This document shows, one piece after another, positions 3,505 through 55,892 of a stretch of DNA of 64,000 nucleotides. The stretch spans positions 17,916,001-17,980,000 of the forward strand of contig OU612072.1 of the NCBI GenBank assembly GCA_914767715.1. The letters are read 5' to 3'. The notes below the pieces were generated by a model. The model was not told the origin of the DNA, did no database searches, and worked only from the letters and a program-made list of their open reading frames with translations. The stretch's first letter is position 1; each line of letters begins with the position of its first letter. Origin of the DNA: Membranipora membranacea (taxonomy: Eukaryota > Bryozoa > Gymnolaemata > Cheilostomatida > Membraniporidae). The translations under genes were made by a program, and so were the position numbers.

Positions 3505-5309
3505 TTACTTCATACCACAGAAGGAATTATAGCACTGCATCTTTGAGTCGTCGTAACGGTAAATGAAATCATTGGGCTCGTTAGAACATCTCATAGCAGA
3601 CAGATCCCAGGTGACATGCTGACAGTTTCCTAGGAAAATATTATGACATATTGTAGTTTTGACTGGCAACTAGCCTGTCTTGACAAGCTTTGTTCGGTGG
3701 GGGGAGGGAACAAAGCTTGTCAACTCTTGCATGCTCGACTGTCGAGCAGCCGATAATAAATATTGTCTTCTCTTTCGATCGAGAAGACAATATTTAATAT
3801 CGGCTGCTCGACTATACAATTTGATTATTGAGATAAAGGAGTTATCTTCCCGATTGCAAGAGAAGACAATATTTAATATCGGCTGCTCGACAGTCGAGCA
3901 TGCAAGACAGGCTAACTGGCAACATAAGAGCGCATTTCAAGTCTTGACAGACAAAAAAATTACAAAACTGGACAAGACACCTTTATTAATACAATGCTGT
4001 GTAATGTCAATGGTTGTGTCGACAACTCTCTCGAATCGAACAAAAAGTTGTATTCATTGTTTGGGTTGTCTCCCCTGCATCCAACACAAAATAGATAAGG
4101 AAGATAATGTCTTCGTCTGACTACATGCTTGACTGATATGTTGTGAGGAGATGATTTCTGTTTGATCTACTGAGTTACCGCATGGATGTTTGGTCCATTT
4201 GCCTGCATTCGGAGTTGCTCCCCCTCCACTGGTTACGGTCCTGCATCGTGACCAGTGGAATGTGAACAACTGGAATGCAGGCAAATTGGATCAAGCTTGT
4301 TCTAGTGCTTAGATGTTTCACCCACCTGCATATCGTGTGTAAGCTTTGATAGCAGTTTCGTCTCCTATTCTGATATTAGTCGGGTGATTACTCCAGATAG
4401 ATCCAGCACTGCCGCAGCTTAGACTCTTAGGACACTTATCCAGCATTCTCTCTCCTATGTAGAACAAATACAAGTACAGCCCCTCTCTATCTGAGCATCA
4501 ATCATCACTTGGCCTCACTAACCGTTTCTGTTGATTGTTTTTTTGGGCGGCAGTATAACTATTAATCGAGTGATCATCAAGATAGAAAGATAAAAAAATT
4601 ACGATGCTGACAACAGCCATCATTTAAATTTATTGCCGGTTACCTTGCCAGTAATAGTTAGTCACTAGGTTGATCATTTGATTCAAGCTTATATATGTTA
4701 ACTTGGGTAGTTTCCGAAAAACAATTGCCTCTAGGGAAGCTCACACCCCCACCCATACTCACCTGCATCCATAGAGAATCTGAACCAGGGCCTGTTGTTC
4801 ATCTTCATCTCTGCGGGATCACACTGCCAGCTGAGCCCACCCTGCATTGGTTTGATATTTGAACCCTCATGATCAGCTCTCCATATCTCTGTCAGATTGA
4901 GCGCAGTGTAACACTCATCAGGAGTCGGTATGGGGGTCGTCGTCGGTACTGCGGTGGTGGTAGTGGTTGGTTCTGTGGTGGTGGTTTCTGTTGGTCTGGG
5001 CCTTGTAGCGAGCGGTCCGGCTTCTCCCTTATTGAGCTGACACTCTACATATAACTTCCTCAGGTTAGTATAGAGCTGCTTCTCCACTATCAGATCGGTC
5101 TGGTCGACAAGATCATCATAAGAGAGCTGTCGTCTCGCCACACTGAGAGGTTTGTAGTCAGCGCAGTCAGACTTGATCAGATCATGGAGGATAATTACTC
5201 GCTCACGATAACGAATCAGCTCCGCATCTCTCCCTGTCTGCATCAGAGAATCGGCAGCAGCGAGATAACAGAACGCTGCCACAAAAAGTGTGAGCTTCAG
5301 CATGGCCAT
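3505..5309 (-). CDS. Secreted uromodulin-type D8C-domain protein
   Basis: Three exons on the - strand: 4763-5309, 4326-4454, 3505-3629, giving about 266 residues with clean phases (1, 1). The start at 5309 is chosen because it gives a typical signal peptide (MAMLKLTLFVAAFCYLAAA) directly. Then comes a mostly helical region with two Cys, a Thr/Pro-rich mucin-like linker (roughly residues 107-135), and a C-terminal domain with exactly eight cysteines in the order of the D8C domain of uromodulin, GP2 and OIT3: DECYTALNLTEIW, WQCD, RPWFRF, DKCPKSLSC, GSIWSNHPT, GNCQHVTWD, MRCSNEP, MQCYNSFCG. The stop follows the last Cys by four residues, so there is no zona pellucida domain, GPI signal or membrane anchor. 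Probably an extracellular or mucus-layer protein; ligand unknown. The second intron carries two foldback insertions. Confidence 0.85.
3671..3914. mobile_element. TAG-CTA foldback element, copy 1 (244 bp) with exact 9-bp TSD
   Basis: Starts TAGCCTGTCTTG and ends CAAGACAGGCTA (terminal inverted repeat). It is flanked by ACTGGCAAC at 3662-3670 and again at 3915-3923, an exact 9-bp target duplication. Internally it has a second inverted repeat near the left end (GACAAGCTTTGTTC / GAACAAAGCTTGTC) and three copies, in alternating orientation, of a module containing GTCGAGCAGCCGAT and GAGAAGACAATATT. Sits in an intron of the D8C gene. No coding capacity. Confidence 0.9.
4190..4292. repeat. Foldback element, family F2 copy 2
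   Basis: Inverted repeat in the same D8C intron as the TAG-CTA element. The outer arms are CCATTTGCCTGCATTC and GAATGCAGGCAAATTGG, the inner arms CCACTGGT / ACCAGTGG. Related to 391-475. Confidence 0.7.
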
Positions 5310-9200: not shown

Positions 9201-9409
9201 TTGGCTAGTTTATGTAATTTGTTGACAATCTGTTCATAATCTAATGCTGTTTTGGTTTGGTCTTCAGAATTCACAGCCTCCTGCGCAATTTCATCCTTTT
9301 GGTTATCAGCAGACTTTTCTCCATTGTGGGCTGCATGGTTCTGAGTTTCACTGTCTGTCCTAGAAAGGTCTGATGGTGCCAAATTTGAAGCTTCCTCACA
9401 ATCTGCCAT
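6248..9409 (-). CDS. NAA30: N-alpha-acetyltransferase 30 (NatC catalytic subunit)
   Basis: Transfers acetyl from acetyl-CoA to protein N-termini beginning Met-hydrophobic, within NatC (with NAA35 and NAA38) on ribosomes. Four exons: 8885-9409, 8061-8190, 6836-6891, 6248-6385; 282 residues, phases consistent, ATG at 9409. About 135 residues of acidic/Ser-Thr-rich disordered N-terminus precede the GNAT domain, as in animal NAA30. Family blocks seen: [58 protein letters not shown], and the C-terminal [15 protein letters not shown]. Odd point: the acetyl-CoA loop reads RRKKIGSNLV, so the first Gly of the R-x-x-G-x-G/A motif is Lys. The loop spans an exon junction. Intron 2 carries a degenerate tandem repeat. 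Confidence 0.93.
6908..6995. repeat. Degenerate CACATAACGT tandem repeat
   Basis: About five to six spaced copies of a (GT/AT)CACATAACGT motif, period roughly 15 bases, in intron 2 of NAA30. The copies contain CpG. Confidence 0.7.
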
Positions 9410-12377: not shown

Positions 12378-13566
12378 ACAAGTCCAGCATGGAGTGTACT
12401 ACTTGTTTTATTAATGCAAGTAGTAAGGAAGTAAATTAATAATAATGTTTTGATTGTTGTTGTTTTTGATACAACAACATCACTTAATATATTCTATTCC
12501 TAATTGTAGTTAGTCAACTCAGGGTTAACTCTAAGCCTTTGTTGTTATGTTATATTGTGACTACCTTTTTATGTTTCTTTATTGATCTTCATTGAAGTGG
12601 CAGATGTTGCTGTTCATTTTCATACATTGCTTGCCTGCACCAAGGAGTGAATCCCTGCATTAGTACAGTACATGCCTGTATTTTGCCAATATCCAAGACC
12701 AATATCATTTGTTGCCAAAATGCAGGCATTAAAGTTGCAGGGCCATATGCTTGTAAGCTCAAAACCAATACCATGACCATATGTTATGTTAGAACATGTT
12801 TTTGCCCCCTGTGGTTGCAGAGTGTTATTGTGACTTTTTCAATAGCAGTTCCCCATCACAGAGAAAACAAACTTGTTCTAATGTTATGTGTGGATATGAA
12901 TGTTATTCATAATATTCATACTGCTTATTAGCAAAGTCTGCTAAGCTATTTGGCTTGTGATGGAGTTGTTTTGAGGTTTAAAATAAACTGCCCAAAATTA
13001 TGTGTTCAGAAACATAAAATCCCAATGTTACCATAAGGAAGAACCCAACTGCTTACTGAGTAATGCAGATGTTCAGAGATAACAAATAACTAAATAGATG
13101 ACAAAAAATAAATTGGGAGGGTAAAACATGCCATATGATTATCAATGATAATTAACTGTCAGGTTATCACTGCAGCGAGCTTCAGTCAAGGAATATCACA
13201 GCTAGCACCTTGTATTTTTGTTGTCAAATTCGATCCCGATTGGTTTAAAAAGAAAGATTTTGTTTGACAGGTGTACAGCCTTGTAGATGATGACTATTCA
13301 AATTAAGAAGCTGCATGATTTTTATTCTTATTACTTAATTTGGCAATCTAAATCATGTTGAGGAAAATATTTTGCATTTAGCGTCAAAACAGAAAAAAAT
13401 GGTCTGAAATCTTTTACCTGTTGCCTCAACTGAACTGCGTAGAGCTCAGTTTAAGCAATAGGTCCTCTGTCTTGTGTTTTGATGAGTCTAATATCTATGT
13501 TTTTGCAGCTGCTCCCTGTCTACTCAGCCTAGAAGAGACAGTGCACTGAATGTGATTCTTGTTGAA
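12378..13566. other. Gene-free spacer before COA6
   Basis: Holds an imperfect foldback near 12650-12750 (GCCTGTATTTTGCCAA against TTGCCAAAATGCAGGC, with outer CCTGCA / TGCAGG) and the upstream part of COA6. A possible acceptor at about 13509 suggests a 5' UTR exon directly upstream of the COA6 start. No coding exon recognised. Confidence 0.45.
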
Positions 13567-16105
13567 ATGTCAGGAGTTGTCCCAGATCAAGCACCCAACA
13601 AAGCAGAGCGTGCGGTAAGAGCTTATCATAACATGTTACCAAACTTTCCCGTCCCTTAGTTTGGTGATATGGGTATTCATAACCCACCTGAGTAAAGGAA
13701 ATGATTTAAACTTGACAGTGGAGGAAAGTAATGAGAAAGCTAAGATCATTAAATTGTCATTGTCTAGTTTGGGTGTGGGTATCAACACATTTTTAATAGT
13801 GACGTATACGATGACTACTCTCTTATATAAACTCACCATTAAACATAAATGGGTTCGTGAAAATGACTTTTGAAATATCAGCCTGTTGTGAAAGCTGCTT
13901 GCGTAATTGATCATCATGCTAGTGTTATACCCTGCTTGGCATTGCTTATCATTTTATCCTTTAACACGGATAGATTCGGGGCAATTTTGCATGATATACT
14001 AAATGTTCACAATGGGCCAGTATCAATTCTATGCCAAAGTGAAGCAATGTATAAAGTGAGATGCAAGTTGTTGTGTGCTCCTGATACACTTTCTCTTAGT
14101 AGCTAAGTTATCACTAGCCTCAAATACATTACATTACATGAAACAATTCAACAATACTCATCAGGCAATCGTATTATTACCACGACTGGCCTTGTGTATG
14201 ACCATTCAGTGCATTCAGGAGTTGTGTTCTCCTCGAACTATGTTTATTTGGTGGGACAACTCCAAAGTATGACACTTACCGAGCAGGGACAGACCAGGGA
14301 GTTTAGGTCCCAAACTCCCTGGACAGACTGACCAGAGACAAACAAAATGTCACTACTAGGTGACAATCTGGGAGCTTTGGACATTCAAATAGATCATTAC
14401 AGACTCGACGAATAAAGTGTTGCCCAATGATGTTAGGTGGTATGTGTTTTTATTTGCAGAATATTTTTATCTTATGCTTTATGTATTATGTGTTTTATAA
14501 ATATAGTATTTAGAGTTTGTGTGTATTGTGTTTTGTGCTTGATAGGTATGTTGGAGTGCTAAGGATAGATACTGGGATTGTTTAGATAATTCTGGTGCTG
14601 GTGCTGTCGATCTATCTATCTGTAAAGAATTGAGGAAAACGTTTGAAGCCGGCTGCTCCAATACCTGGGTATGTGCTGTGTGCTCGTACATATACTCTGT
14701 GTATTATATATGTAAGCAGACATAACCTAAAAAGTCCAGTTCTGTATGGGCAGTAGTCAGTTTTATAAAAGAAACATAGTAGAGGTTGTGTTGGGGCAGT
14801 CGATGTTATGTGCTAAGACAGACATGCAGCCCCTACAGCACAAACTCACTTACTTCACTTAGGTTGCAGGATTCCTTCTGGAATATTGCGCCAGTATATT
14901 CATCTCCTGCTCCCTCCATCTCGACCTATATTTTGCCATCTCTGCAGCTTCACTCCAGGATTTGATGCAAAAAGTCTGCAACTGATCAAGAGTAGCATCC
15001 TCCAGGTCTTGTTTGGTCTCCCACGTCTCCTTTTGCCTTCAGGTGCCCAACCCAAACTAGTGTGTGGGATTGAGCCCTGCCTTCTCAGAGTTTGCCCCAG
15101 GTAACGCCTTCTTCGTACTCCAATCATCTGATTCACTGGGTGCTGCCGACTCATTCCGTACACTTCTGCATTTGATGTCTTTGTCCACCAGTACAGCTTT
15201 AAATTCCGACGACAGCAGTCAAGGTTGAAGACTTCGAGTTTGCGTAGGTCATCCTTTGTCATTGTCCAAGTTTCACATCCGTACAATAAGACTGACAGCA
15301 CAAGCGACAATGCTATGTGCCTTGAGTGCTGTAAGACATGTCCCATACAGCACCTGCCACATGTCTTACAACGCTTGTTGCCAGCGTCAGTTTCAAGTGC
15401 CCATTCAGAACAGGATAAACTTTTGTAATGGAAAATCTGGATTGGTGCGGTGACACCCCTCAAACTGATCGTACCTACTTATTAGCATAAAATTTACAGT
15501 TACTGAGTTTATAGTTTTTTGGGCAAATATAACTCTTTGACCGATCTCACTGACCAAAAACTGCATTGTCCTAGTGATGTATTGTTAGCCTTGTTCACGC
15601 GGCCAAGGGTTTTGATTTTTTTGGTTGGCTCAAAAAAACCAAAACCGGTGACCGCGTGATCAAGGCTAATGTATTGTGTTCCTTGTGTTATGTATTGCTA
15701 TTTTATGCTCTTTCTTGAAGGGTTACAAGACTTGTGTGTTGTTTCCAGGGTCAAGCATACCCCAGGTTTTTGTGAACAAATCTTTAACAACTGCCCTAAA
15801 ACAAGCGTAGTCTTGCCATGTCAACAATTATAAATCAACTATTTAGAGCACACATACTAAATGATCTGGTGACTCAGTTTGAGATCAGACCAAGCTCATG
15901 TTTGAGATGGTGAGCGGCTAGATAAATTATGTGTTTGGTGTTCTTTTCCAATGGTGCATGCCCTGACTTCAAGATTTCGGTGATATCTTATTTCTTTACT
16001 TCTCAGGTAAAACATTTTGATAGACGATTTGGATATACACGCTTCAAAAAGTCACAGCCATCCTACATACTGACTGAGAGCTCTGAAAAAACATCCACTA
16101 ACTAA
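13567..16105 (+). CDS. COA6: Cytochrome c oxidase assembly factor 6
   Basis: Small twin-cysteine protein of the mitochondrial intermembrane space; the family acts in copper delivery to COX2 (CuA site) with SCO1/SCO2. Three exons, 13567-13614, 14546-14668 and 16007-16105, all in phase 0, 89 residues. The COX6B/COA6 signature is complete: CWSAKDRYWDC is CX9C and CKELRKTFEAGC is CX10C, followed by NTWVKHFDRRFGYTRFKK, the family's basic/aromatic helix end. The first exon codes for only 16 residues; an open frame continues upstream to an acceptor at about 13509, so a longer N-terminus is possible, but the chosen ATG matches the usual short form. Intron 2 carries a LINE fragment and a TAG-CTA foldback. 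ATRIP starts about 280 bases downstream on the same strand. Confidence 0.92.
14881..15463 (-). pseudogene. LINE reverse transcriptase C-terminal fragment
   Basis: The reverse-strand frame contains LSVLLYGCETWTMTKDDLRK and LEVFNLDCCRRNLKLYWW, the stereotyped C-terminal segment of many non-LTR retrotransposon polymerases (YG-ETW followed by an R/K-rich region), then a GKRRRGRPNKTW tail. Truncated at both ends, inside COA6 intron 2. Different lineage from the copy at 11706-12377. Confidence 0.8.
15586..15668. mobile_element. TAG-CTA foldback element, copy 2 (83 bp) with exact 9-bp TSD
   Basis: Starts TAGCCTTGTTCACGCGG and ends CCGCGTGATCAAGGCTA. Inner arms GGTTTTGATTTTTTTGG / CCAAAACCGG continue the hairpin almost to the centre. 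Flanks are ATGTATTGT at 15577-15585 and ATGTATTGT at 15669-15677. In COA6 intron 2. Confidence 0.9.
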
Positions 16106-27313: not shown

Positions 27314-27381
27314 CTTATTTATACTATGCTCATTTAATAAAATAGTATAATATATTAGAGAGTATATGTAATTGGCTAAGG

Positions 27382-27420
27382 TAGCCTGTCTTAACGAACA
27401 AAACTTGTCAAGACAGGCTA
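27382..27420. mobile_element. TAG-CTA foldback element, copy 3 (39 bp) with exact 9-bp TSD
   Basis: The whole insertion is TAGCCTGTCTT, 17 central bases (mostly the GACAAG-type subterminal motif), then AAGACAGGCTA. Flanks are TGGCTAAGG at 27373-27381 and TGGCTAAGG at 27421-27429. The termini are the same as those of the 244-bp copy at 3671, so this is a nearly minimal member of that family. Confidence 0.9.
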
Positions 27421-27463
27421 TGGCTAAGGCAGACGCCATGTTTGCTTCAAGACTATATCACAC

Positions 27464-27755: not shown

Positions 27756-28207
27756 CGATATCATTCTACATGCTCATCCTTCAAAATTTTAGTGTACTTA
27801 CAGTGCCAACATTTTTTGGGGTGCCGCTCCTCAATTAATATCTCACAACGAACAGTAAATAATTTAGATGAGAGGTAGCATATGGCCGTTTCTGAACCGA
27901 TGTCTGTCCCAGCTTCCAAGCCAGCTGGTCATAGATATTATGACTAGTCGGTAGCTAAGCCAACTGGCTTAGAAGTGATGTCATTGAAATAATAATTTAG
28001 ATTAGTCCGCTGTTTGAATATAGCCGTAATGATGAAAGTGTTTATAATGTCATCTTCAAGATTCGAGTCACTAGGACTGTTAGAGGGGTGAGTTGTAGCA
28101 GTGATGGGCCAGTTATATTACCAGGTATTTATTTTGACCATATAATTTCAGCGGACAATTATATTCCGAATACTTTATTTTAAACTGATAAGAGACATTC
28201 ATGTCAA

Positions 28208-28826
28208 CTGTACTCTGTCCCACGCAGTCCTTGTCTATACTAAGCAGTGTGTGGTAACTGTACTCTGTACCACGCAGTCCTTGTCTATACTAAGCAGTAT
28301 GTGGTAACTGTACTCTGTACCACGCAGTCCTTGTCCTTGTCTATACTAAGCAGTGTGTGGTAACTGTACTCTGTACCACGCAGTCCTTGTCTATACTAAG
28401 CAGTGTGTGGTAACTGTACTCTGTACCACGCAGTCCTTGTCTATACTAAGCAGTATGTGGTAACTGTACTCTGTACCACGCAGTCCTTGTCCTTGTCTAT
28501 ACTAAGCAGTGTGTGGTAACTGTACTCTGTACCACGCAGTTCTTGTCTATACTAAGCAGTATGTGGTAACTGTACTCTGTACCACGCAGTCCTTGTCCTT
28601 GTCTATACTAAGCAGTGTGTGGTAACTGTACTCTGTACCACGCAGTCCTTGTCTATACTAAGCAGTGTGTGGTAACTGTACTCTGTACCACGCAGTCCTT
28701 GTCTATACTAAGCAGTGTGTGGTAACTGTACTCTGTACCACGCAGTCCTTGTCCTTGTCCATACTAAGCAGTGTAAGGTAACTGTACTCTGTACCACGCA
28801 GTCCTTGTCTATACTAAGCAGCAGTG
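28208..28826 (+). repeat. Minisatellite: 12 units of 50 or 56 bp
   Basis: The unit starts CTGTACTCTGTACCACGCAG and ends GTGTGGTAA. Eight units are 50 bases long and four are 56, the extra six being a duplicated CCTTGT. Long units are units 3, 6, 8 and 11; three of the four follow a short unit carrying GTATGTGG in place of GTGTGTGG, so part of the array was amplified as multi-unit blocks. Copies are nearly identical, implying recent amplification. Confidence 0.95.
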
Positions 28827-29296: not shown

Positions 29297-32155
29297 ATGA
29301 GCGGGAGTTGCTTATTCATATTGGGTAAGTTTGAAACCAATATAGCTTTTAATCTGTGCGTAAAAGAGCAATGGAGTCCCCCATTTGTTAATTTTTTGCC
29401 TGTTTTTTTAATTTTCGGTTTTTTAAAACCAGGATTACTAGCCTCCAAGAAGGATGACTGGACTCTACTGGCAGATGCGCTGGTCAAACTCTCAAATGAC
29501 GCAGATCCGAAAAGCCTCCCTGGTGACAAATCTCTCGCTCTCTTTTGTGAGAGCATCAAGTATTACGCAGAAGCTTGCTCTAAATCTCACAACAAAGATG
29601 ATGACACGGGTTCTATTTGTAACAAAGCTATAAACAAGCTGAAAGCACTACAAGAGAATCATGGGTTACAAGACACAAACCAGTTGAGGCTCTATTTCAC
29701 CGCACATATCGAGATGCTCAAGGCTCGAGCTCATATTAGGAAGTTCTGCTCCTATGGTAATACTGCTCAAGAGTGTATCGATATATGTAAGAACTAGAAG
29801 GCAAAAAAGCACAACGATATCGCAAACGTCAGATGCGTCATGGCTAGGTTGGTGGTAAAAAAATCTTGATATCATGGCAAGGGCTAGCATGTCTTACATT
29901 GCTGGAGGGGGGACAATCCCCAGCAAAGCTTGTCAAGACAGACTAGGCCAGGGCATTATTACAGATTATGGGAACCTTGGTGATCCATCTTTGAGGAAGG
30001 CAACCAGTACATAAAAATTAACTCCAATGTTATACAGATTCAGCTGCAATTCATTGCAATTCAACGGCATTCAGGGACAAAGCTGCGTATAAATTATCGA
30101 TATTAGTAACATCCGTTTTGTTTATTTCACTATTACAGAGTAGATTTGGACTTGGCTGATTATTACATACAGAAAGCTTTGATAACAACACCATTTAAGA
30201 AAGCTTACTCTTGCCTCAAAGCATCGGATGCAAAACTGAAGGAGTCAGATATGACACACACAACGCAAGCATGGCAAACTTTGCATAATATTGCCAATCA
30301 TCTCACCCACATTGTTACTGGGTGGGTCAGTGGAACAGCCCTCTCTTGCCAATTGTTGTGTAACACTATAGTAACACGCTAAAATGTCTCTTATAAGACC
30401 TTAGGTCCCATCTTTGACCGCACTGATGAGGACATCAAAATCATTGATATAAACATTTTCGACTCTCTATAATTAATTTTTTTTGGCACACACCTCTGCT
30501 CCCATAGGAAAGAGGTATTAAAAGCTAGTCGTATTTTCATGCGGTGACTCGACACCTTTTGCTACCTAGCACTCCCACCACATATAGAAAGCTAGACAAT
30601 GGTCTAATGTTTCATGTATTGCCTGTTTTATGTTGAACTTACTTTATGGAATTGGACTTGTCCCTCTACTGATAATCCATAGCTCAAAGTTGAACGCAAG
30701 CAAACTTGGTCAAACTTGATCCAGAAAATTCTATTAATTAATTTATTAATTACCTTTGTTATTCTAGAATGAATGTAAATTATGCTCAAAGGAATAGAGC
30801 AGAGATAGACTCTTACCTGAAAGAGGCCAAGGAGAAGCTACTGACCCTATATGATCAGTGTTACTTTAACTCACTGTGGGGAGGACCACAAAGAATGCTG
30901 TATAATTCACATATCTATGTTGGTGGCAAGTTTAAAGACATCGCGGAGTTCTACTTACAATTAGGAGGTTTGTTTTCTCTGTTGCTCCGCAGAATTTACT
31001 GTTTACCATTCTTATGCAAACACACAAAAAAATCTTCCTTTATCAATTATTTTGCTACCAAGTAGTCGTCCCTCTGAGGTTTTGTTCATCTGACACTTGG
31101 AAGTTGCCACAAAGCACTCTTGACCAAGATCTCCTAACTTCTGAGCTTTCATGAATGTCTTGTGACACACGTGCCATTCTGATGTTTGAAATGAAATTAT
31201 AAATCTGAATTCAGCTGGTGTTATGAATTTTCTCCCTTTTTTAAATGCTGTGAACTGGGATGTTATCTGTTCCACACAGATACCAGTGAACATGCTACGC
31301 ACCGGCGGATCACCGAAATTCTACTGCCAAGCCTTCAATATGATGCTACTGGAAGGGCCTCAAATAGACATGAGTCATGCTATGTACGACATATAAATAC
31401 TCTCTGGTAGTCTACCTCAGCTATTGTCTAACAGCGGTATTACTGCACTGATCGAGAAAGCTGAAAGAGTCAAAGGAAAACTAGAGGTAAATATGATTTT
31501 CAAACTTGTCTGTATATGTGATAACCATAAACATATAATTAATGTTTATGGTGTTGACGTACATAGGTTGATCTGAGCGTCCAAATATTTCTATGAAAAG
31601 ATTACAATAATTATTAATTACCTCGCAAATGGCAACGTTTAAATTTATTTTTGTATTTAATTTTGTTTATTGATTCAGCTGCTGTGTTAAGCATTTCCCT
31701 AAGACATGCAAATGAGCCACGAACTTATGTCTGCCCTAGATGTATTTGAGTCCAACTCCAAGGACATTTCATGCCAGGATGCACTCACATAGAACATATA
31801 GACTATACCATTGCATGTATTTCTCCGATCGATAGAAAGTGAACTAATTCACTTAGCATGAGTACCATCACAAGGAATTGGGGTGACGACCCGAGTTCAC
31901 TTATACTAATTAGGGGCGTGTACATATTAGGTACTCATCCTTCAACCCACCGACAGCATGAGTAATACTTCAGGCAGCACAGAGCAGCCTGGACAGTCAA
32001 CTAACACCACTCAGGCTGTGGACGATATCTCTCCTTCTAAAGAAGTGAATTCTGTCTGTGAGGGTGTAAGTGAGGCAGCAACTGCAACAAAACGTGAGGC
32101 TGAGAACAATAAGGAGGAGACTGGGGATGGAGATAAAAGGCGGAAATTAAGATAA
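29297..32155 (+). CDS. Unrecognised, probably all-helical protein in seven phased exons
   Basis: I do not recognise the family. Exons 29297-29324, 29433-29786, 30141-30321, 30768-30967, 31280-31383, 31421-31486 and 31931-32155 join without a stop to give about 385 residues. The middle is rich in Leu/Ala/Lys/Glu and looks like stacked helices of TPR-like character (KSLALFCESIKYYAEA, DLADYYIQKALITTPFKKAY, AQRNRAEIDSYLKEAKEKLL, YNSHIYVGGKFKDIAEFYLQ). The tail is hydrophilic and ends DGDKRRKLR, a possible nuclear localisation signal. Weak points: the start exon is only nine codons, the intron 31384-31420 would be 37 nt, and the last acceptor (after 31930) lies at the edge of a MITE. If the 37-nt intron is not removed, a stop follows within ten codons. 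Either a real gene with a mini-intron or a decaying one. Confidence 0.55.
29885..29945. mobile_element. TAG-CTA foldback element, copy 4 (61 bp), 9-bp TSD with one mismatch
   Basis: Begins TAGCATGTCTTACATTGCTGG and ends CTTGTCAAGACAGACTA. The right half matches copies 1 and 3 (AAGCTTGTCAAGACAG). Flanks GGCAAGGGC at 29876-29884 and GGCCAGGGC at 29946-29954. In an intron of the 29297-32155 gene. Confidence 0.85.
31803..31930 (+). mobile_element. MITE-A, copy 2 (right end degenerate)
   Basis: Shares TATACCATTGCATGTATTTCTC, AGTGAACTAATTCACTTAG, GTGACGACCCGAGTT and TAGGGGCG with the copy at 63754-63933. The right terminal repeat is not recognisable; similarity fades where the last exon of the neighbouring gene begins. 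Confidence 0.8.
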
Positions 32156-33450: not shown

Positions 33451-36400
33451 CTTGCTCGGTTTGATAGCAGCTCTCCATGAAAGCGGCATCAGGCAGCATT
33501 TATTGAGCAAATATGGAGAGAGCAGTGATTCATCTACCGTCTGAACACCATTCAGAGCTATGAAAATTTGGAACAAGACCGCTTTTTATATCAACAAGTC
33601 TCAGATGATAAACATTGGTACTAGATGCAGGTGTTCCTGCATCTATCATTCTGCAATTAGCTGAGTTGAGTTTTTCGAGTTTCGAATTTCGTTTTGGAAC
33701 CACAATGATGTAGTTAATGAAAGTGATGACTTCTTCAAGTTAAATCACAATTGATTACATTTGCAATAACGAGCCATATGCATTAGACTGGGATTCAGTC
33801 CAACAATTTGAAGTTATCTACTCAGGTTGGGTGTGATGGTTTGTTGTTGTTGTTGGCCTGAATCCCAGGCTATATCTGCATTAGATACTTACAGAAGAGG
33901 ATGCTAGCAGTAAGTGTTATAAGAAGGGATACCAGACATCCACTAACTGATACCCAGTTATAAGACTGATCAAATAACGCCAGTCCTCCAGTTCTGTAAT
34001 CAGACGAAGAAATTCTTACTTAGTATTGGGATCCATTTATTTGGTTTTCCACTACTCCTGATTTACAAGATCAATGCTGATCCAGGGGGTCTTTCAATTA
34101 GAAACAGCCAAAATCGCAGTCTGATTGCTCACTCCAGTGAGCGAGCGACACTTGCTAGGCTCTCGCTTTCGAATCGCTCAGTCATTGATGGCACAACATA
34201 CATTCTGAGTGAGCGATTCGGGAACGCATTGTCTATTTGAAAGTCCAAGCGAGTGATAATTTTGAGTGATGTTATAGTGATAACTTGCTTTAGTAAAGTA
34301 ATTGGCTGTTGCTGTTTGCTAAGAAACAGAAGATTGGGCCGCCCCTAAAGAGGGACGCAAGGTGCCCTAATCCTCATACTGAAAATGTGATACATTCTAG
34401 AAAACTAGAATGCATCCTAGAGGTGAGGCCATAGAGGACCTCCTAATCATAAGTGTGCAGCAAGCTGCCAAAACTGAACTGGCACTAATCGGCCATTGGC
34501 AGTGACACTTTGATCTTAGCCAATATGTCTGTTATCATGTATTATTTTCCTTCTTTTCGGTAATGACCATGATGAGAAACGCCTATACTCATTTAGCCTA
34601 TCTGATGGGTTGTGTGATCCCACCAACAAAGCCTATCAAACAACGCTAACCTTCATTATAGCAAAGGGATGGTTCAAAGAAGACCCCCCTGGTCAACAGT
34701 GTCTATTTTCAACTTTTACCTACCCAACCTAGCCTATGTGTTGGCTCTGATTGGCTGGTAGGAGGGAGACAACCAATCGGATCAGAGCCAACATATTGGT
34801 TCTACCATAGACATATTAATAATATTAGAAAGTCTATGGTTATCCTAACCCTAATGACACCGACCTGTAAAATGGATGTGGATCAAAAGCTACCGGATCA
34901 AACACTGGCGATGTGATATTAGCTAGCAAACTGCTGTCTGTAATGTTACAGCCTGCTGTAGTAGTCGGGTATTTACTCTGATACGGCTTAGCTATTATAC
35001 CTCCCACTCCTAACACAGCGCCGTATACTGTATGAAACAGAATTAAAACAATCAGCTTTTTTGCAGTCTGGGAATGCATATACTTGGATAAAGAATGTTG
35101 AAATCCAAGATCAATCGAAACTACTAACATGTGTCTAAATTTTGAAACCATATGCAGATAAGATGCAACCAAGTGAACGCCCTCAGCTCATATGGAGTAA
35201 CAGAAGACAACTGCTAATTACAAACCTAAAATTAAGAATTTTACTGCGGCTTATTTTTCTTGACAATACCAGCCAAACCAAGCCCTATAATTTATTAGTT
35301 TTTCCATCATACAATGTTAAAACTTGTGAGTTAGATATGCACATACCTGCGCCACATATAAATCCAATAAAAGCTCCTCTTGTGTTGGTTACTGGGACGT
35401 AAATCGCTGCAATAAACAGGCCTACCATCGGCCCGCCAAACATACCTGCGAATACTATAGTTGCCTGTAATAGAGGCAAAGATTAGTTAGTTTTGTTGTA
35501 TCCTTGGTGGTGAATCGAGCTCTGACACACACAGCATAGTTACAAAGATCTAAATTATTGCTGAAACTGAACTTTTTCGTGGAAAACATATTGTAACAGT
35601 CTTATGCGCAAAACAGCAGCTTATGGTGCATGGCAAGTGGTTAAGTGCATTGTTCAAACTTACGGAAATGATTCCTTTGCCAGCAAACTTGATAAGGACC
35701 ACAAGTAAGAGAGCCACTATCCCCAAAGAGAATGCTATGACCTTAGATACAACTGTTGCTTTCTTGTCAGATATTCCTGGCTGACATGGCCTCACGAAAT
35801 CCTCAAGTATAATGAGGGCTCCAGAATTCAGCAAAGAACTTATTGTGCTAGAACAAAAGACATACAGCTATACTATGACCAATTAAAAATCTACCTAAAT
35901 TTTACCAGTCTTTGAAATGCACCCTCCTCTACTGATTAGGTATTAGATGTGGACAAAATTGTTGAAGATGTTCTAATGCCGAACATTCCTTGATGATACA
36001 CCTGCCTTCATTCTTGCCATTGTGTTTTGTCTTTGGTTCAGGTGTTTGTTGAGCGGTTGGGTGGATGGGTACAAAACTGGTCAACTGGTATGAGTCGGAG
36101 GGTGGAAAACTAATGTGTTAGCTCTGATTGGAGCGACCATCAACCAACCAGAGCCAGCATATTGGCTACGGCTGGTCAGCTAGAGTTGAGTGATTCTCAG
36201 GCTTTGATAACTTGGATGACTTAACAATACATACAACGTAATCACAAAGTCATCCCTCATTAATTCAAGAGGAAACATCACCTGCTCTGGGATGACCACT
36301 AAGCAGCAGTACGGAAATGGTGTGTCTGTTATCTCATTGGTTATTACCTGAGAGAAGCGCTGAATATAGCTGACAGGAGAAGGCCAGGAACTCCAGGTAG

Positions 36401-39400
36401 ATGTCCAAATAACCTCATCACATATAAAGGGTAAAGCTATAACAAATTTATAAATATGTATATTTATATATATCAAAATTTAGCACAAACACAAATAATA
36501 TATCCATGTAGTTATAGTTATATCCTAAACAAGACATCTTAGAGACATCTCAGGAAGACTAATCATCGGGATAAAGCCATGCAAACTTTCAATACTGGTG
36601 TGGATTTTTGATAAAAAAAAAGAGAAATTGATCATACCTCCATCCCTGTTTCATATAGGAATAAAAATATGATCTGTTTTAACAACTGAGAGTGACTCTT
36701 ATTGTACAATCACCCTAGACTTGTCACACGGCTACTCCTCAAACAAAAGAATTAGCCGTGTGACAAGTCTACAATCACACTGTAAAAAGTAAGCTGCTTT
36801 GAAAACCAATTTGAAAGTAGGACATAGATGGCGGGACCTATTTCGTAGTGTCACAAATTCCAGGATTCTTTGCTTGCTCATAATCAATTTAGTTGTTGAT
36901 ATCACCCAGAGTTTATTTACCTGTCATCACGTCATAGCTGTCAGATTTCATAGACAAGCTTTAAATAGTTGCACTGAGGTCAGATTACTAATTGCTAGTG
37001 CGAACTGTTAGTCTTTGAAGGTCTAATCACACATTTCAAGTTCCTATAGGTAAATATCACATTCCATACATGTCAATGACCGGTGGTCTAAGTGGAATTA
37101 TTTCTTCTTGAGGACTCCACGTTCTGGGCAAAAATCGCTCAACACTTTTTTAAATCTAAATCTAAATTAACATTATAATTATGCAGAATAGTATCTGGTC
37201 AAAAAGAGACATTTTAGTTTTTGCACAGAATCCAGTGGGAGCTGTTCACTGAACGTTCCCGTAATATGTCTAACATCTATTATTCTTGTGTAGGCATATT
37301 CTCATGGGTCCAGAAAGGGGCTTAAATACCAAATAAAGTTCATATCATGACTATTAATTACTAATAATATTATTATAAATTTATATATAAATACATAATG
37401 TATATAAATGAAGAGTAGAAGGTCTCACAAACCTGATCTGATAAAGATATTTCTTTGGTCTTCAGAGGATCACATGTCTTGAAGTAACTGAAGATTGAAA
37501 TTCCTATGAGAACACCGATAGTCTGGAACATCCACACCCCTAAGAATGTCATAACATAGGCTCTGAAATTAGAAATATTAGTTGACTACTAAATATAACA
37601 CATATATTACATCAACGATCATCCAAATATGTTCTCCCTGATGTGCCAAAAAACCCCAAAAGTCAAGGAAATAAAACTCAATTCAATGAAAACAAATGGT
37701 TTGACAATGCAAATTTAAATGTTTGTACGAAAGTCGCCCATTCCATCTGTTGCTAAATTTTGAGCGTGATATGACCATAGATATTTCAGATCAGGTGAGC
37801 CATCAAATGAGATGACCAGCCTATAATTGCAGCATGAATGGCAGCTGAAATTCTTATCAGTTGATATATTTGTTAGACCTATGGCACATGACACATGAAT
37901 TTGAACATTTGACATATAAATAAGACATTGTATATTCAGGGCCATAGTTAAGAATTAATGGTAGGGGAGGCAAAAGTCCCAGACTTGTCCGAAGCATCGC
38001 CAGGAGGGGTGCTGTAAGCTCCCCCTCATCGATTTAAGGCATATAAATAGCAATGGAAATTGCAGTGCAGCAAATTCTGACATGGATTATTCAATTATAT
38101 CATTTTAGACCACTCTATTGAGTATTGTAGGGGAGGCAGAGCGTCCCTGCCTCCCCTAGAACTACGGGCCTGAATTTGACATCAGACTTACATGGTTTTG
38201 TGTGATTTGGAGCGGAGAGAGAGGTATCTCTGTACGGAACTTTGGTTACACCCATAAAAGTTAGTGAAGGCAAGAATGCCGTTGAGGAAACAGGCCCAGA
38301 AAGTCATACGTGTTCTTGGGTCAAAATCCATCACTCTCAACCTAACAAAGACAGAAACCATCGGTTATAATTTATCGTGACATTTGTTCCCGAATACAGA
38401 CATTGATTACAAGATAAATCCAATAACAATCCTAATAACGGCATTACATCCAAGTTGTTGAGCTCAACACCATGATACCTCTAACAGCAGCAGTGTTGTT
38501 CAGCAGACAGTTGTAAAGAAATGTTGGTGAAAATTGCAAGGTTCAGTCATGCACCTAATTCCGAAGAATAAGTCACGATATAAGATGTACCTGGTCGCAA
38601 TGCTTGCGCCAGTTTTGCTCTCAGTTTCTAGGCAGGTCGGAGCACACCTGGGGATCCAACAAGTCACAGCAGCCAGTGGACTGCAGTGGGTTTCAAACCC
38701 ACAACCTTCAACAATTGCATGCTGAAGTTCGGCGCTCTAACCAACTGAGCCACCTCCTACTCCTACTGTGGTTATAGCAATGAACTAAGACAAAATCAGA
38801 AAACCTTTTCCCAGAGATAATTTTGAATCTCTTGGTGCAAAATTGGGACAATTTGGTCCAATTAATAGTATCTGTGATCTTACTCGATGAAATCAAGGCG
38901 CCCGCTGAGTTTTGCTGCATCCCATATTCCACCGAATCCCCCCTGTACATATGTGCCGTAAATCAAAACCAGAAACAAGCCGATAGCCATCACTATCAGC
39001 TGGAATGCATCCGTCCACAGCACTGCCTTCAGGCCTCCCTGAAATATTGTCATGACAAAGAACAGAGATGAATTGAGAGATGCGGATCTTACAATGCAGC
39101 ACAAGAGAGGAACAATTCAGGCTCATTGGTAAAGGGGGGGGGGTAGGGTCGGTTTAACAGAGGTGAATTGACCAGGAGATGACCATGCGTTTTTAAACGG
39201 CCAGTTAAACCCTAGGTCAAGTATGAGCCATGCTTGACTTTAGAGTTGCCCGTTTTGAGCCGTAGGCAACTCACCAGTAGAATAGGCAGTTTTCTGCACG
39301 CTAATTTGAGCCTCTATTTGGAGTTGTCCTCTCTCCAGTTTGCTACTTTTTAACCCACGAAGCGTAGGAAAAAGAAGCTGAAAAGTCTTGAAAACCACTT

Positions 39401-42400: not shown

Positions 42401-45400
42401 TCTGAAATGTCACAGAATAGCTGTAACTTTCTGTTAACTGATTTATAACTTGGATTGTCTCTCGTTTAACCCTAGCCAACAAAACTGTCCATAATTTACC
42501 ATTCTTATCACTTACCTAATCAGCAACTATTAGCTGCCTCAGTTTAATTTTGTGAAGTTATCTTTATCAAAGCTATATGGTACTCATTTCTTACAGACGA
42601 AGTTTCCACACTTGCTGAAGATGTGACCCCCAGTATATCAGCCAGTACACCAGCCACTACACCAGCCACTACTTCTGCTGCAGGTATTTTTTGTAATTGC
42701 AGTTCAACATCTATTTTATTAGTGGTTGTGTCATCCTGTGGGATTTATATCATGTTACTTAATCTTGATTTCAATTTGGTATGCAAAACAGTGTAAATGA
42801 TGACGAATTTCATAATGTTTATGGTATATCCACTAAAATAATGATTCTTTGCCCGGCCTACTAATCCCAAGCTATTGCCTATCCCTCAATCCAGCATTAT
42901 TAAACTAGATGATCTATTGGAATATTGTACTTGTAGCTAGGGCGGAAAATGTCACAGACTCTCGTCCATGGGCTAAACGGAAGAAAAAGGAAGAAAACTC
43001 CAAGTCACGCAAGCTAGATCTAGATGATGTTGATAAGATGCTGATAAAGAAACTTAATGAAGAAAATGATGATGATGCAGTGATGCTGTTCCTCCGTAGC
43101 ATGGCTCCTAAGATAAGGGAGGTACCACTAGAACAACAAATGTTGCTCCAAATGGAAATCATGCAGCTGATAAACAACTATGTCGTAAACAAAGCCAAAC
43201 CTCAGTTACCATCACAACCACCAAACTATACCAATTTCCAGTGGCATCCCCCGAACCCTTTAGCCCCGCAGCAATATCCGGCTAATAATTCAATCCAGCA
43301 GCATAATATGATGGCACCAGTACCACCTCAGCAGTATTCCATGAACCCTCAAGTCCAAAATCAGCTTTCCACAAACAATATTGCTCCACAACAAATGTCC
43401 ACAAACAATCCCACTATGCTTAACTTGTAAATTACTCCTGGTATTATTCATCCATCTGGGCTGATCTCTGTAAGTTCTGCATGAAGTTTATTTTATTTAT
43501 GTTTTCATACGTTTACCTTGTTTTGCAGTTTATTTGCATCAATAATCTTTTTTGTTATCTGTTTCTTGCACAAGCTGTGCAGATAAATCAAAATTTAGCA
43601 GCATGATATGATGACGCCATTACCAGAACAGCATTATTGGTTCCTCTCCGTTGATCTCAGTAGCTTCTGCATAATGTATATGCTCACTTTGTATTATATG
43701 CAACTTTTTTTTTAGTTTTTTAGTTTTACAGTTTATTTCCATTAATAATGTTTTTTGTTATTTGTTTCTTGCACAAGCTGTGCAGATAAATCCAAATTTA
43801 GCAGCATAATATGATGATGCCATTACCAGAACAGCATTATTGGTTCCTCTTCGTTGATCTCAGTAGCTTCTGCATAATTTATATGCTCACTTTGTTTTAT
43901 ATGCGACTCTTTTTTAAGTTTTACAGTTTATTTCGATAAATAATGTTTTTTGTTATTTGTTTCTTGCACAGGTTGTGCAAATAAAATTATATTGTACAAA
44001 AATATAAAAAAAAATAAAAAATCAGTTTACAAAACTTTTATCTACACAGCAACACGGCCACTGTCACGGATATATTCTACTTGCCATGCTAAAGATCCTT
44101 CATGGCTGTTCACATATAGACAAAACCGGTCTCTCACTGTTTTTGGATTGAGGCCGCTGAAGTTTGACCCCTGATTTGTCAAGCTTCCAAAGGCTTGATT
44201 AGATATACAGGCTCTCCATCCGCCATGAATCAGTTGACCACTTGAATCATAGGAGTCAGCAAATCCTGTGGGTAAATACTTGGCATTGTCTGTGCTCAAT
44301 AGATAGTTGTGCAAACAGCAGCAGGCTTGCACTATATTATCGATGAGATCGAGATTGGCACATATAGGTCTTCTGAATATCTGCCATCTTGCTGACAGAA
44401 TACCGAAAGCGTTCTCAATGCATCTACGAGCACGAGATAAACGGTAGTTATATATACGTTGAGACTCTGAAAGATTGCTACCTGGATACGGCTTCATAAG
44501 CCAGTTCTTAAGGGGAAATATTTCATCCCCAATTAATACATATGGTAAGTCGAAGCCGTTAACAGGTGATTGCGGAGGTATTTTTGCATCTCCAGATTCG
44601 AGAAGTTGATAGAGATTTGTTCTGTTAAATACAGCTGCATCGTTGTCTCTACCATACGAGCCAACATCTACGAAGATAAATCTGTATTTAGCATCGCATG
44701 TTGCCATAAGGTTAGTCGAGTAAAAACCTTTATAATTTCTGAAGTCTGAACCACCTAGTTTTGGGCACTGGATGTTGATATGCTTTCCATCCAATGCTCC
44801 TATAACATGTGGCAAGTTCCATTCTTGAAAGTACTCATCAGCAATAGCCTTCCATTCCGCTTCAGTCCTGGGATGAGTGAGGTAAGTTTCATTCAACGCA
44901 TTCCAGATGGCAGTGCAGCCCTCACGCACAATCCTCGATGCACTTGTTCGCCCAACCTGAAACAACAAAGAGCCCACTATCTTACGGGTATATTAAAATC
45001 TGATCTGCTACAAGATAAATCATTGTGTAAAAAATTTAAATTGCTATAATATCAAAAATATGAGCAAAAGTTTGATCATATTTTTACCATGCCCTATATT
45101 AACATATTAAAAGCCACTGAAAGCAAAGAAAGCGTAGCCCTAACCACAAGCCTTGCTCGTTTTGACTAGGGCGCTTTTCACTAACCCCAAACACATGTTA
45201 GGAACTAAGTACAGTCGGACAGGGAAGAGCTCACTCATATTTTAATCATGCCTGACATCAACATCTAAAAAGCCACTGAAAGCAATAGGACAGGAAAGAA
45301 ATAGTTGTATGAGCAAATAGTTTTGATTCATAGTATATTAACAGCTCTGCCTGTCTGCACGTAGCTGGTAAAAATAACATATCGCTGCCTTCTGACCCAC

Positions 45401-48400
45401 CATGATAATTTAACAGCAAAGGGACACTTGTTTTAAATACCGTGTACTCATATTTCTACTGTAACCCTTTGCTAGTATGTGGGATGTAAAGGTCGTATAC
45501 AGTTTATCATCCTCCTGGATGTATTTTTGGAGTACACATCAACACTTACCACAAAGTTGAAACTCTCTGATGCCTGCGTGTTTCCTGTCGCCAGGTAGCG
45601 AAGGGTTATAGCAAGGCGTTGCTTTGGGCAGATTACTTCTCTGTTCCAGCAACGCTTAGTCAGATATGGCCGTGTCAACTCTGCCAGGTGCTCGAATCTC
45701 TCTGGTGACATTCGAAGAAATCTACAACAATACCGGGTTTGTTCACAACTTAGAATGGGAAAGGCCTGCAGAAGTCTTTGAAAAAAGTGACTAGGTACAT
45801 GGTTTAAGGGCCAATTGCTAGTGTTAGATAGCACTAATCTCTCTAGGCCTATAATGTTGATTCACCAAGATGTCAACCATACTAGTGGACGAGCCCTGCA
45901 CTCTTGACCTATTATTATTATTCTAACTTACTTATCAAATAATCAACAAATATTTGTAGCATACGCCACACAAACATATACACTGCAGTAGAAGAAGCTA
46001 AGCAATTGCCACTTTTACATGGAGGCAAAGTCCAAGGCCACATAAACAGTGTTGTTATTCAATACCATTGTAGAATAGTGTAATGAATGTGTCAAAATAT
46101 AATTCTTACCTGAAATACCACTCACGGTCATTATTTCTCATGTTTTCCATGATTGTATGGAATTGGCCATGTTGATTTCTATTAAGCAGTGTTGGCCTCA
46201 CCCACCACCTCCTACACTGTTTCTCAGCCTCCATTCTTCTTCTCTTGACCCTCCTCCTCAGAAGTGTAATGAGTAGTAGTCTCTTGTTGATAGCTGCCAT
46301 TATGATTATAGTACTTGTATTCTAAACAAATGTATGAATGAACTGTGTGACTGCTATCAACAAAAGGAAGTTTTATTCACTATTTGTTCCTCACACACCA
46401 GAGAGAGAGATAGAAAACTTACTAAGAAAACCTTAAAGTTTGCTAAAGGTTTTCCTGATTTGGTAAAAGATGTTCCTGCGACAGTTGTGCGTTTTGATGG
46501 GTACCTAAATTGTGTGAAATATGTTGTGCTGCATTTTGTGGTACCCACAAATTCTTTAATGATTGCCAGTGCAAAATCTTAGAAATTCCTGAGATTAAAA
46601 AAGCACATTGGTGGGTACAAGGCTTAATGTATTTTTGCCACATCTTTTTAACTGTCAGTTGTGAACGTGGAATAGAGAAGAATAGAAGCATTAACAACAG
46701 CTCGCTCTTTCCATTATTTCCATCTCACCATCTTACGATCCAACTCACAAAGCACTCTCCCACGTTACTTACGAGATCTTAAAACACAACTTGACATACA
46801 TGAAGAGCACTTTGGCACTATAATAACACCCCACAGATATCTACATACACGCTAAATTCCTTATAACAGCAGGAGTTAGAGACAAGGAGATGCAACAAAA
46901 ATAGCCTCAGTCCCTTTCTGAAAATATTGCATTCTGCCACAGTATCTCCCCATCATTAATTTAATGTGGAAATGAGGCTATATGAATGTTGTCTCATAAA
47001 AAAAGTTTTAGCTAATAATGATGTAATTTATAATTACAGTTTACCATTGAATAAATATGTCCCTAACTCCTTGCTCTGACACACCCCCAATCTTACCTGC
47101 AGCTATGGATATAGCAGGTCCATATATTACCAAGGCTGCATACATCATCTACCAACACAAAGGGGATAAAGCAATGTATTATGGATAAAACACAAGGTAC
47201 AATACAAAAGAAATTCAGATATGGTCAAACAACATACAGACAACTAAACACCACAACGGTGATCATCTAGATTCCAGGTTCAGGTATTATCATTTTATTA
47301 CAAGGCAATCAAAATTGCACCATAAAAAAAGAGCCATGGTTAATTTGTCAATAAAAAATCGTTCGATCAGTGAGGTTTACTTATAACTGGCCATCAGAAC
47401 ATAAAAACTGTTGAACAATGGATATGACCCTATTTTACCTTTCCCTCGTACCGGTCATTGGCCATTAATAGTGATCTATGTACCTTCGGTTTACAGTTGA
47501 GAAACATTATGTGCTCATTATAAATCACTAAAAATGTTTAAATTGGCTAGGTAGATTTAATTCTAGCCATTTTTCCTAAACACATCCTGCAACTAAATTT
47601 AAGTGCTTTTGCAGAAAACAGCTTTAAAGCTATAGTACAGCTTAGGTAAAAAAATATTGCAAATCACATGCTGATTAACATATTTTTCAAAGATTTTTCC
47701 CAAATTCAGAAAAACCATGCTCTCACAATCGAGCATCTTATACACATTAATAATGTTATAGAGCGATAAAGAGAGGCCAACTTTGCGGTTGAGAAAAGTA
47801 GAGGAGAAATTTCTGCGTTCATGAGCAATTTAGAAGGTTGCTACAGTGCTTTTAATAGCCTGAGACCTTCAATAATATGATACCAAATATTTAAAGGCGC
47901 AACTATAGCTTTAAAGAAACAATACCATTGATATGAGAGAAGTCACCACGACCACCATCTTCAGAGGTCTACCAAACCTGAGCTCTATATACTACAAAAT
48001 ACATAAAAATGGACACAAGTTGATCACATATATTTATTGAAGGCTATTCTTGCGTCAACCGCTTTGAAGCCCTGCAATAATGGGTAGATGTATCACTGTT
48101 ACATTGATTTGACAGCAGCCACTCATGATTATGATGAAAGATGGAATGATTTTGATGTTTCCTTTGGTAGTCAAAATGACACTCCTTGGCATTAAATTCT
48201 GCACTCAAATAGGTCGAGAAAGCTAACAATATTATGATTCTATCAAGTTGAACAAGTTATCAGAACATCAACCAGGAAAGGAAGATACGTTATGAAGCCA
48301 GTTTATTGTATTGAAGCAAACTTGATGATAAAATCGTGTACCCAACCCCTTAGTCAACATCAAGTCTGTATTCTTGTTCATGGCCAGTCAGCCAGCCAGC

Positions 48401-51411: not shown

Positions 51412-51460
51412 TAGCCTTGTCACACAGTCACAGTTAAAAAGTAGCCGCTTGACAAAGCTA
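51412..51460. mobile_element. TAG-CTA foldback element, copy 7 (49 bp), 9-bp TSD with one mismatch
   Basis: Begins TAGCCTTGTCACACAGTC and ends GTAGCCGCTTGACAAAGCTA. Flanks GCAACGGCA at 51403-51411 and GCAATGGCA at 51461-51469. It lies 34 bases upstream of the SLC5 start codon, so in the probable 5' leader or promoter. Confidence 0.85.
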
Positions 51461-53990: not shown

Positions 53991-55371
53991 GCAATTTCAA
54001 GAACTTTGTTGATTATATTAGTTATTGGAAGTGACAACAGATGTGCGTTGTTTTTGGTGACCCAGCTAGGATAATCCTCTCTATTAGTAGACTTGTGAGT
54101 GTTTATACCTCTAAGATTATGCTCATAACTTCTCTACTACTGAATTTATCATCAAACACCACGATCAAAACCTCAGAAATACTCTCTAGTGTAATGTAAG
54201 CTGGTGTGTATGACATGTTGTTTAACCTATTTTCAGTTTTTTGGCTGGAAAGGAATGCATGTTTTGGACCAAATAAATCGAGTTTAGCCACAAAAATCAA
54301 AATATCTCAAGATGTAAAGCCATAATCAATAATGGCTTCGATCAAAATCTAGACAATCTCCTGCTGTTCATCATGCTGACAACAAATTTGACTGACATAT
54401 TTCTGAATTTCTGATTTTTGGCTGGAAAATTTTGTCCAAAATTAGTGAAAATCTGGGTTTTATTTGTTACAGTTGTGACAACCAGGATCTGTAATCTGGT
54501 AAGATTATTGATGGAAGTGACAATGCAAGACCAAAATGGTATAATAAATTGGAAATTTTAGTTTCTGCATTATTGGGGTCACATGTAATGAGGGGTCAGA
54601 AATGGCCCTTTTACTATTGCAAAAATCAAGTTTACGTTTCAAAGACAGGAGGCCTAAAAATATGAAGTTTCACTAAAATGTTGCTCCTCCAGTTAGTGCC
54701 ATGCCTCCTCTATATGGTGAAAGCAAAAACTAATCAAATACCTCAATAGCATGTCACAGAGGGCTCAGTTTAAAAAGGGCACTTTTTGCCCCAAAATGAA
54801 CTTTCAGTGGTCACTGCGACTCAATGTCAAATATTTGGGAGGTTTCAACTGTGAAAATAACTATTAGACATGATCCCCAATACAATTTTAAAAAGTTTTA
54901 AAAAGCGCTGTCCCTCTTTTACCTTATTATCACTATCACATTTTTCAATCCATAAAGATTTGTTGCAGAACAAAAATTTCCAAGTGTTTTTCAGCCAGGG
55001 AACAGGTGTCAGGTAAAGATGGTTAAACAATAATTACAAAACAAATTGTTGATTTACCACATGGCCAAGAACCAAGCGTAGTTATTTTCTGACAAACTGC
55101 ACAATTATCCCCTTTGTGTCTAAAAGTAACACTAACTCTGCACTGCTGGGGTGTGGTAGCGGCATTCCATCATCAACCATAGCCCATTATGGTGAATGAA
55201 TTTTATGATGGATGGCATTGCCATGTCGATGACTTCTCGGATAACCTTCTGTTGGTTTTCATTATGGAAATTATGGCGGAGGATAAATACACTTATTACA
55301 AATACAAGACAGATGAAGTTGTCACATTTTATTTTCTAAGCAGTGAAATAGCAAAGGTAGGTGTTGTCCTA

Positions 55372-55440
55372 ACCAATGCCTTGGCTCTGATTGGTGGGAT
55401 GGTCTCCCCAGCCCAACCAATCAGAGCCAGAATATTGGCT
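55372..55440. repeat. Foldback family F3 copy 3
   Basis: CCAATGCCTTGGCTCTGATTGG against CCAATCAGAGCCAGAATATTGG with a short loop; third copy of the family at 34736 and 36112. Confidence 0.8.
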
Positions 55441-55892
55441 AGTGTTTTACGATATCCATTTTCTAATAGGCTTCTCTCAATTCAATTGTGGAATGTCACA
55501 GGCAGAAATGTCCACCTTGAATACAACAAGCTTTATCGTTGATATAGATCATCATATATCATACAGCAAATCAAGCAATGTTTTGAGAGATTTATAGTCT
55601 AGATGGACAAAAAGACAAATCCATGCACATCTTTGTGAGAGGACACCATTCAAAAAGCAGAAGGAATGAAGTAAAATAGTAAAATACATTACTGAGTCTT
55701 GAAAAAGCATCAATTGCAAGATGTGAACTGATTGTATGCCCGGAAGAAAAAAGAAGTCTATTCTAAATTCTTACAATATGTTTAACAAAATGAAGAAACT
55801 GGTAATAAATTAACATACCCTCCAATCAAGATTACTTTTTGAGCAGGGATAAATAATAGTATGAGTAGCTAGCTGGGAGCACACTGATAGCG

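Follow-up and report, generated by a model that had tools for sequence, protein, structure and literature searches.

The stretch of DNA analysed here, referred to as the window, comprises 64,000 nucleotides of the assembly of the sea-mat bryozoan Membranipora membranacea (C8:17916001-17980000), and nine short foldback elements, none with an assigned strand, were found in it. Eight of them had been delimited in a preliminary description and their coordinates were confirmed, as TAG stands at the start and CTA at the end of all eight intervals. The ninth, at 12790-12880, was absent from that description and was recovered by a scan of all TAG/CTA inverted pairs in the window. TAG is the start of 18 of the 18 element ends in the window.

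Four of the elements are flanked by an exact 9-bp duplication. The element at 3671-3914 is a compound foldback of 244 bp belonging to family A, with end bases matching at 12 of 12 positions, and lies between two copies of ACTGGCAAC (3662-3670 and 3915-3923). The family D element at 12790-12880 (91 bp, ends TAGAACA, 1 mismatch in 12 end bases) is bordered by ATGTTATGT (12781-12789 and 12881-12889), and the family B-like element at 15586-15668 (83 bp) by ATGTATTGT (15577-15585 and 15669-15677). The family A element at 27382-27420 is only 39 bp long, carries the full 17-bp family A end in its right arm, and is enclosed by TGGCTAAGG (27373-27381 and 27421-27429). One mismatch was present in the duplications of the elements at 29885-29945 (family A, 61 bp), 36716-36771 (family B, 56 bp), 51412-51460 (family B, 49 bp), and 63148-63344 (family C, 197 bp), and two in that of the element at 33784-33872 (family C, 89 bp). 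The duplications claimed for the eight elements were likewise borne out, the flanking 9-mers having no mismatch in three cases, one in four, and two in one.

The families differ in their ends, which read TAGCCTGTCTTG... in family A (window copies 3671, 27382, and 29885), TAGMCTTGTCAC... in family B (36716 and 51412, with 15586 related), TAGMCTGGGATT... in family C (33784 and 63148), and TAGAACA... in family D (12790). The two arms of 36716-36771 match over 19 bp (TAGACTTGTCACACGGCTA).

Some further features were noted in the window. An inverted repeat at 62962-63095 has the left end TAGCCTGAGTGCTCAGACGGCTA, a decayed right end, and no 9-bp duplication, and is perhaps an old fifth family. The single end repeats of this repeat and of the family B element at 36716-36771 start with TAG, end with GGCTA, and resemble small elements nested in the ends. 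The inverted repeats at 55369-55442 contain CCAATCAGAGCC, which recurs at 34729-34758, and are probably another miniature element. An NHL-repeat protein is encoded at 58978-59802; its nearest relatives are about 50-55% identical, unnamed proteins from metagenome sources. No Rfam family reached its gathering score in the window.

Comparison with shuffled sequence

All TAG/CTA pairs of the window with 12-bp ends, at most 3 mismatches, and a length of 26-300 bp were collected. The 75 pairs obtained had exact flanking 9-mers in 4 cases, at most one mismatch in 8, and at most two in 9. In 100 dinucleotide shuffles (2-kb blocks), the mean number of pairs was 67.8 (maximum 104), and the mean numbers of pairs in the same three classes were 0, 0.02, and 0.19, with maxima of 0, 1, and 2. 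The earlier judgement that a chance origin is very unlikely was thus upheld.

With exact 9-bp duplications required, a scan independent of TAG found four cases in the window, each with TAG ends, whereas 15 shuffles yielded none. When 1 mismatch was allowed, two non-TAG cases appeared as well, at 3745 (within the 3671 element) and at 39429. In a survey of all 64 terminal triplets over the window and the fetched loci, TAG scored 14, of which 6 came from loci fetched for holding a family A end; AAG also scored 14, of which 13 came from one minisatellite, and the others among the best 20 triplets scored at most 2. The minisatellite, at 28206-28821, is built of 50- and 56-bp units with a higher unit of 106 bp, and mimics inverted pairs with 9-bp duplications. 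A lax TAG match at 47009-47530 was set aside as chance-like.

Copies in the genome

The whole assembly (339,339,785 bases, 18 contigs) was searched for the family ends. The 17-bp family A end, with at most 1 mismatch, occurs at 5,120 sites (2,551 + 2,569) in 339 Mb, compared to 1 (0 + 1) for the reversed control. The family B pattern has 167 exact sites (87 + 80) and the family C pattern 180 (77 + 103), each with a control of 0. As family C ends crowd two regions of contig 3, at about 14.2-14.4 and 18.9-19.4 Mb, with regular spacings of 10-12 kb and 40-55 kb, the counts for family C include segmental or tandem duplication besides insertion. Such spacing points to large repeats that include the family C element. 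The proposal of transposon insertions with 9-bp target duplications, belonging to several non-autonomous families, therefore held up, and families A, B, and C are multicopy genome-wide. In viral contigs, four loci fitted the patterns, two of them identical in sequence, and were rejected with no partner end at any of the four. A plasmid search with 36690-36800 gave no match, and a literature search found no publication that treats these elements or MULEs in bryozoans.

On contig 1, the first 30 places with a family A end, corresponding to 26 distinct loci, were then analysed, and partner ends were looked for within 400 bp on the basis of the end repeat only. Where the partner end matched at 12 of 12 positions, an exact 9-bp duplication was present in five of five loci. 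At the ten loci whose partner end matched at 11 or 12 of 12 positions, the duplication was exact in five and had at most one mismatch in six; at least three mismatches between the flanking 9-mers were seen in the other four, of which three lie within copies of one repeat. The copies of one repeat with a 25-bp form, L014, L017, and L021, are not independent. Controls with shifted flanks gave at most two mismatches in 0 of 155 and 0 of 310 cases. About 15-16 of the 26 loci lacked a convincing partner by this end-repeat search within 400 bp, and decay, greater length, or truncation may account for such loci. Some loci, e.g. L012 (107 bp, exact duplication), gained a partner in a looser search that made use of the duplication.

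A random sample of 14 stretches of 10 kb from other places (140 kb) contained no TAG element whose flanking duplication had fewer than two mismatches. Decayed A-, B-, or C-like copies were seen in L039, L040 (twice), and L045, and two non-TAG pairs had an exact 9-mer. In L039, a 32-bp inverted repeat at 9260-9291 with non-TAG ends (TCTAAAA) has an exact 9-bp flanking repeat. Compared with this sample, which held no fresh copies, the window is enriched in copies that look fresh, and their number in it is not typical.

Nature of the elements and the probable transposase

The elements have terminal inverted repeats and a fixed 9-bp duplication, and families A, B, and C are multicopy and dispersed. 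They are best explained as a known kind, the non-autonomous foldback MITE, in an unusual variant. They were inserted with a 9-bp duplication, are present in many copies genome-wide, and fall into discrete small size classes. We consider it fairly probable that they form at least four families (A-D), that these were mobilised by DDE transposases (one or several, most likely Mutator-like) whose cuts are offset by 9 bp, and that the tiny copies arose by slippage. The transposase or transposases would act in trans on the TAG/CTA ends and would make target cuts staggered by 9 bp, which would leave the 9-bp duplication. During replication, the hairpin arms of longer foldback copies could then pair, and slippage between self-complementary words common to both arms, chiefly AAGCTT, would delete the middle. 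Such a collapse would spare the outer end repeats and the flanking 9-bp duplication, giving the 39-, 35-, 34-, and 25-bp copies.

That the enzyme is most likely Mutator-like is argued from the 9-bp length of the duplication, the foldback structure, and the occurrence of MULE domains in the genome. MULEs make duplications of 8-11 bp (PMC6446971), a range that includes the 9 bp found here. The genome has 32 matches to PF10551, the Mutator-like transposase domain, and four weaker ones, at C8:16127587, C6:23442626, C7:28441141, and C10:19582518, lie in open frames of 402-804 aa. The best-scoring locus, the one of the 32 that was read, was rejected as the source for want of fitting ends: its 1,763 surrounding TAG/CTA pairs included none with 9-mers at one mismatch or fewer, and the domain does not lie between exact 12-bp inverted repeats. 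In the window, the larger TAG/CTA element that the preliminary description had pictured as the carrier of a transposase was sought up to 25 kb, and the eight weak pairs obtained were not convincing. On contig 1, a gap of 1,931 bp between two family A ends was considered as an autonomous element and dismissed; one end belongs to a 35-bp copy and the other to a separate 34-bp copy, and the interval holds no transposase-like reading frame.

A single enzyme common to all families is plausible. It is possible, though we doubt it, that families A-D are the separate work of several unrelated transposases that all use TAG ends and leave 9-bp duplications. The ends agree only over TAG and a loose MCTKG, and family D begins with TAGAACA, as several enzymes would allow; all four exact duplications of the window lie at TAG ends, however, a pattern most simply explained by one enzyme or enzyme group.

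The hAT elements make an 8-bp duplication, and here the flanking match spans 9 bp, the first base included, with no exact 8-bp class in the TAG-independent scan. Harbinger elements make 3-bp duplications. A Harbinger-like DDE_Tnp_4 transposase frame (PF13359, E 1.9e-33) lies on the minus strand at 44042-44977, and the locus at 44042-45834 was rejected as the source with only one weak inverted 11-mer nearby.

Tiny forms and their size classes

The 39-bp copy had been taken to be the smallest, which was not the case, since copies of 25, 31, 34, 35, 37, and 38 bp were listed. Two perfect 17-bp ends lying 0-30 bp apart were found in 98 elements genome-wide (control, 0). Among the 50 of these 98 that were listed (contigs 1-4), 14 are identical 34-bp palindromes spread over four chromosomes, one is 37 bp long, and 35 measure 42-58 bp. 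A search with 12-bp ends gave 206 elements of 24-54 bp genome-wide (control, 0), and the 50 listed of them (contigs 1-2) comprised two of 25 bp, one of 31 bp, 13 of 34 bp, four of 35 bp, two of 38 bp, and 28 of 42-54 bp. In the listed 12-bp-end matches below 40 bp, 19 of 22 thus have one of three lengths, 25, 34, or 35 bp; if lengths were uniform and independent over 24-39 bp, this would have a probability of 1.3e-11, a value that does not count events, since copies may share descent.

Slippage was simulated on seven longer copies, with the six best repeats per copy. The word AAGCTT in the family A end repeat is its own reverse complement and is therefore present in direct orientation in both arms. 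Deletion from AAGCTT to AAGCTT produced the exact 34-mer in six of the seven copies, and the six best repeats of the seventh, L033, gave other products. Slippage at TTGT/ACAA and CTTG/CAAG produced 35- and 25-mers in four of the seven. These predictions were computed before the lengths of the 12-bp-end elements were listed. The simulation also yields lengths of 36, 41, and 20 bp, each from one interior, and the 31- and 38-bp copies were observed yet lie outside its predictions. Since 19 of the 22 listed copies below 40 bp have slippage lengths, the tiny forms probably arose by collapse of longer foldback copies. Slippage would then be the origin of the size classes, and the 34-bp forms would mostly be dead ends. 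The 39-bp copy of the window at 27382-27420 is an asymmetric deletion with a left arm of 11 bp and a right arm of about 27 bp.

A reading that we regard as unlikely takes the 34-bp palindromes to be mobile themselves and moved as such by the transposase, the size classes being amplified subfamilies rather than repeated collapses. It draws on the 14 identical copies among the 50 listed, scattered over four chromosomes, and on the two 34-bp copies with 12/12 ends, L011 and L022, both of which lie between exact 9-bp duplications, a feature to be expected of collapse and mobility alike. Against it, the size classes have the lengths that slippage would produce, and a duplex of only 34 bp would be too stiff for its ends to meet in an ordinary synaptic complex. 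As a straight duplex of this length cannot bring its ends together, mobile forms would need to be recognised as a hairpin or cruciform. Perfect palindromes of 34 bp, and perhaps of 25 bp, that still move by being recognised as extruded structures with TAG and CTA side by side seem to us rather improbable.

Comparison with known systems

The elements were compared with the known systems that resemble them most. Tm1 of root-knot nematodes, a Mutator/Foldback (Phantom) family (PMC3169594), shares the foldback-like inverted ends, the many MITE-like non-autonomous copies, and mostly 9-bp duplications, with 8-10 bp flanking 45 of 53 complete elements. In contrast to the TAG ends of the bryozoan elements, the ends of Tm1 are of a composite type in which 7-bp motifs lie outside the inverted repeat; moreover, an autonomous Tm1 copy with a MULE transposase is known, whereas none was found for the bryozoan families, and the bryozoan copies are far smaller. 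Muta1 of Aedes aegypti, Mutator-like and classed as foldback (PMC5225508), likewise has 8- or 9-bp duplications, a terminal palindromic motif, and hundreds of non-autonomous derivatives, but its ends are 145 bp long with subterminal tandem repeats, compared to bryozoan ends of 12-30 bp. A yeast assay of excision and reintegration has been used for Muta1. Bacterial REP-type palindromes of 20-40 bp (PMC3733652) are similarly tiny and dispersed; they are not eukaryotic, and 9-bp duplications are unmentioned in the description compared.

The Merlin superfamily, which the preliminary description had named as a possible source, is a very improbable one. Its 8- or 9-bp duplications would fit, but its ends begin with 5'-GG (PMC8101967), whereas all 18 ends here begin with TAG, and it is disfavoured for that reason. 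That the palindromes and the flanking repeats are both due to chance has nothing beyond isolated lax matches such as 47009-47530 on its side and is refuted, its probability being practically nil, by the shuffles, with no exact case in 100, and by the reversed-pattern controls, with 0 or 1 genome-wide.

Implications

These families set a lower bound on the DNA that a mobile element keeps while it is still recognisable with its target duplication. The discrete classes of 25, 34, and 35 bp offer an example, open to test, of transposons shrinking through slippage in a hairpin. Should the 34-bp forms still be mobile, models of end pairing by transposase would have to be revised, and the 34-bp (perhaps 25-bp) palindromes would be, to our knowledge, the smallest DNA transposons. 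For the host, the families help explain part of the unclassified repeats that have been reported for bryozoan genomes (PMC13326412).
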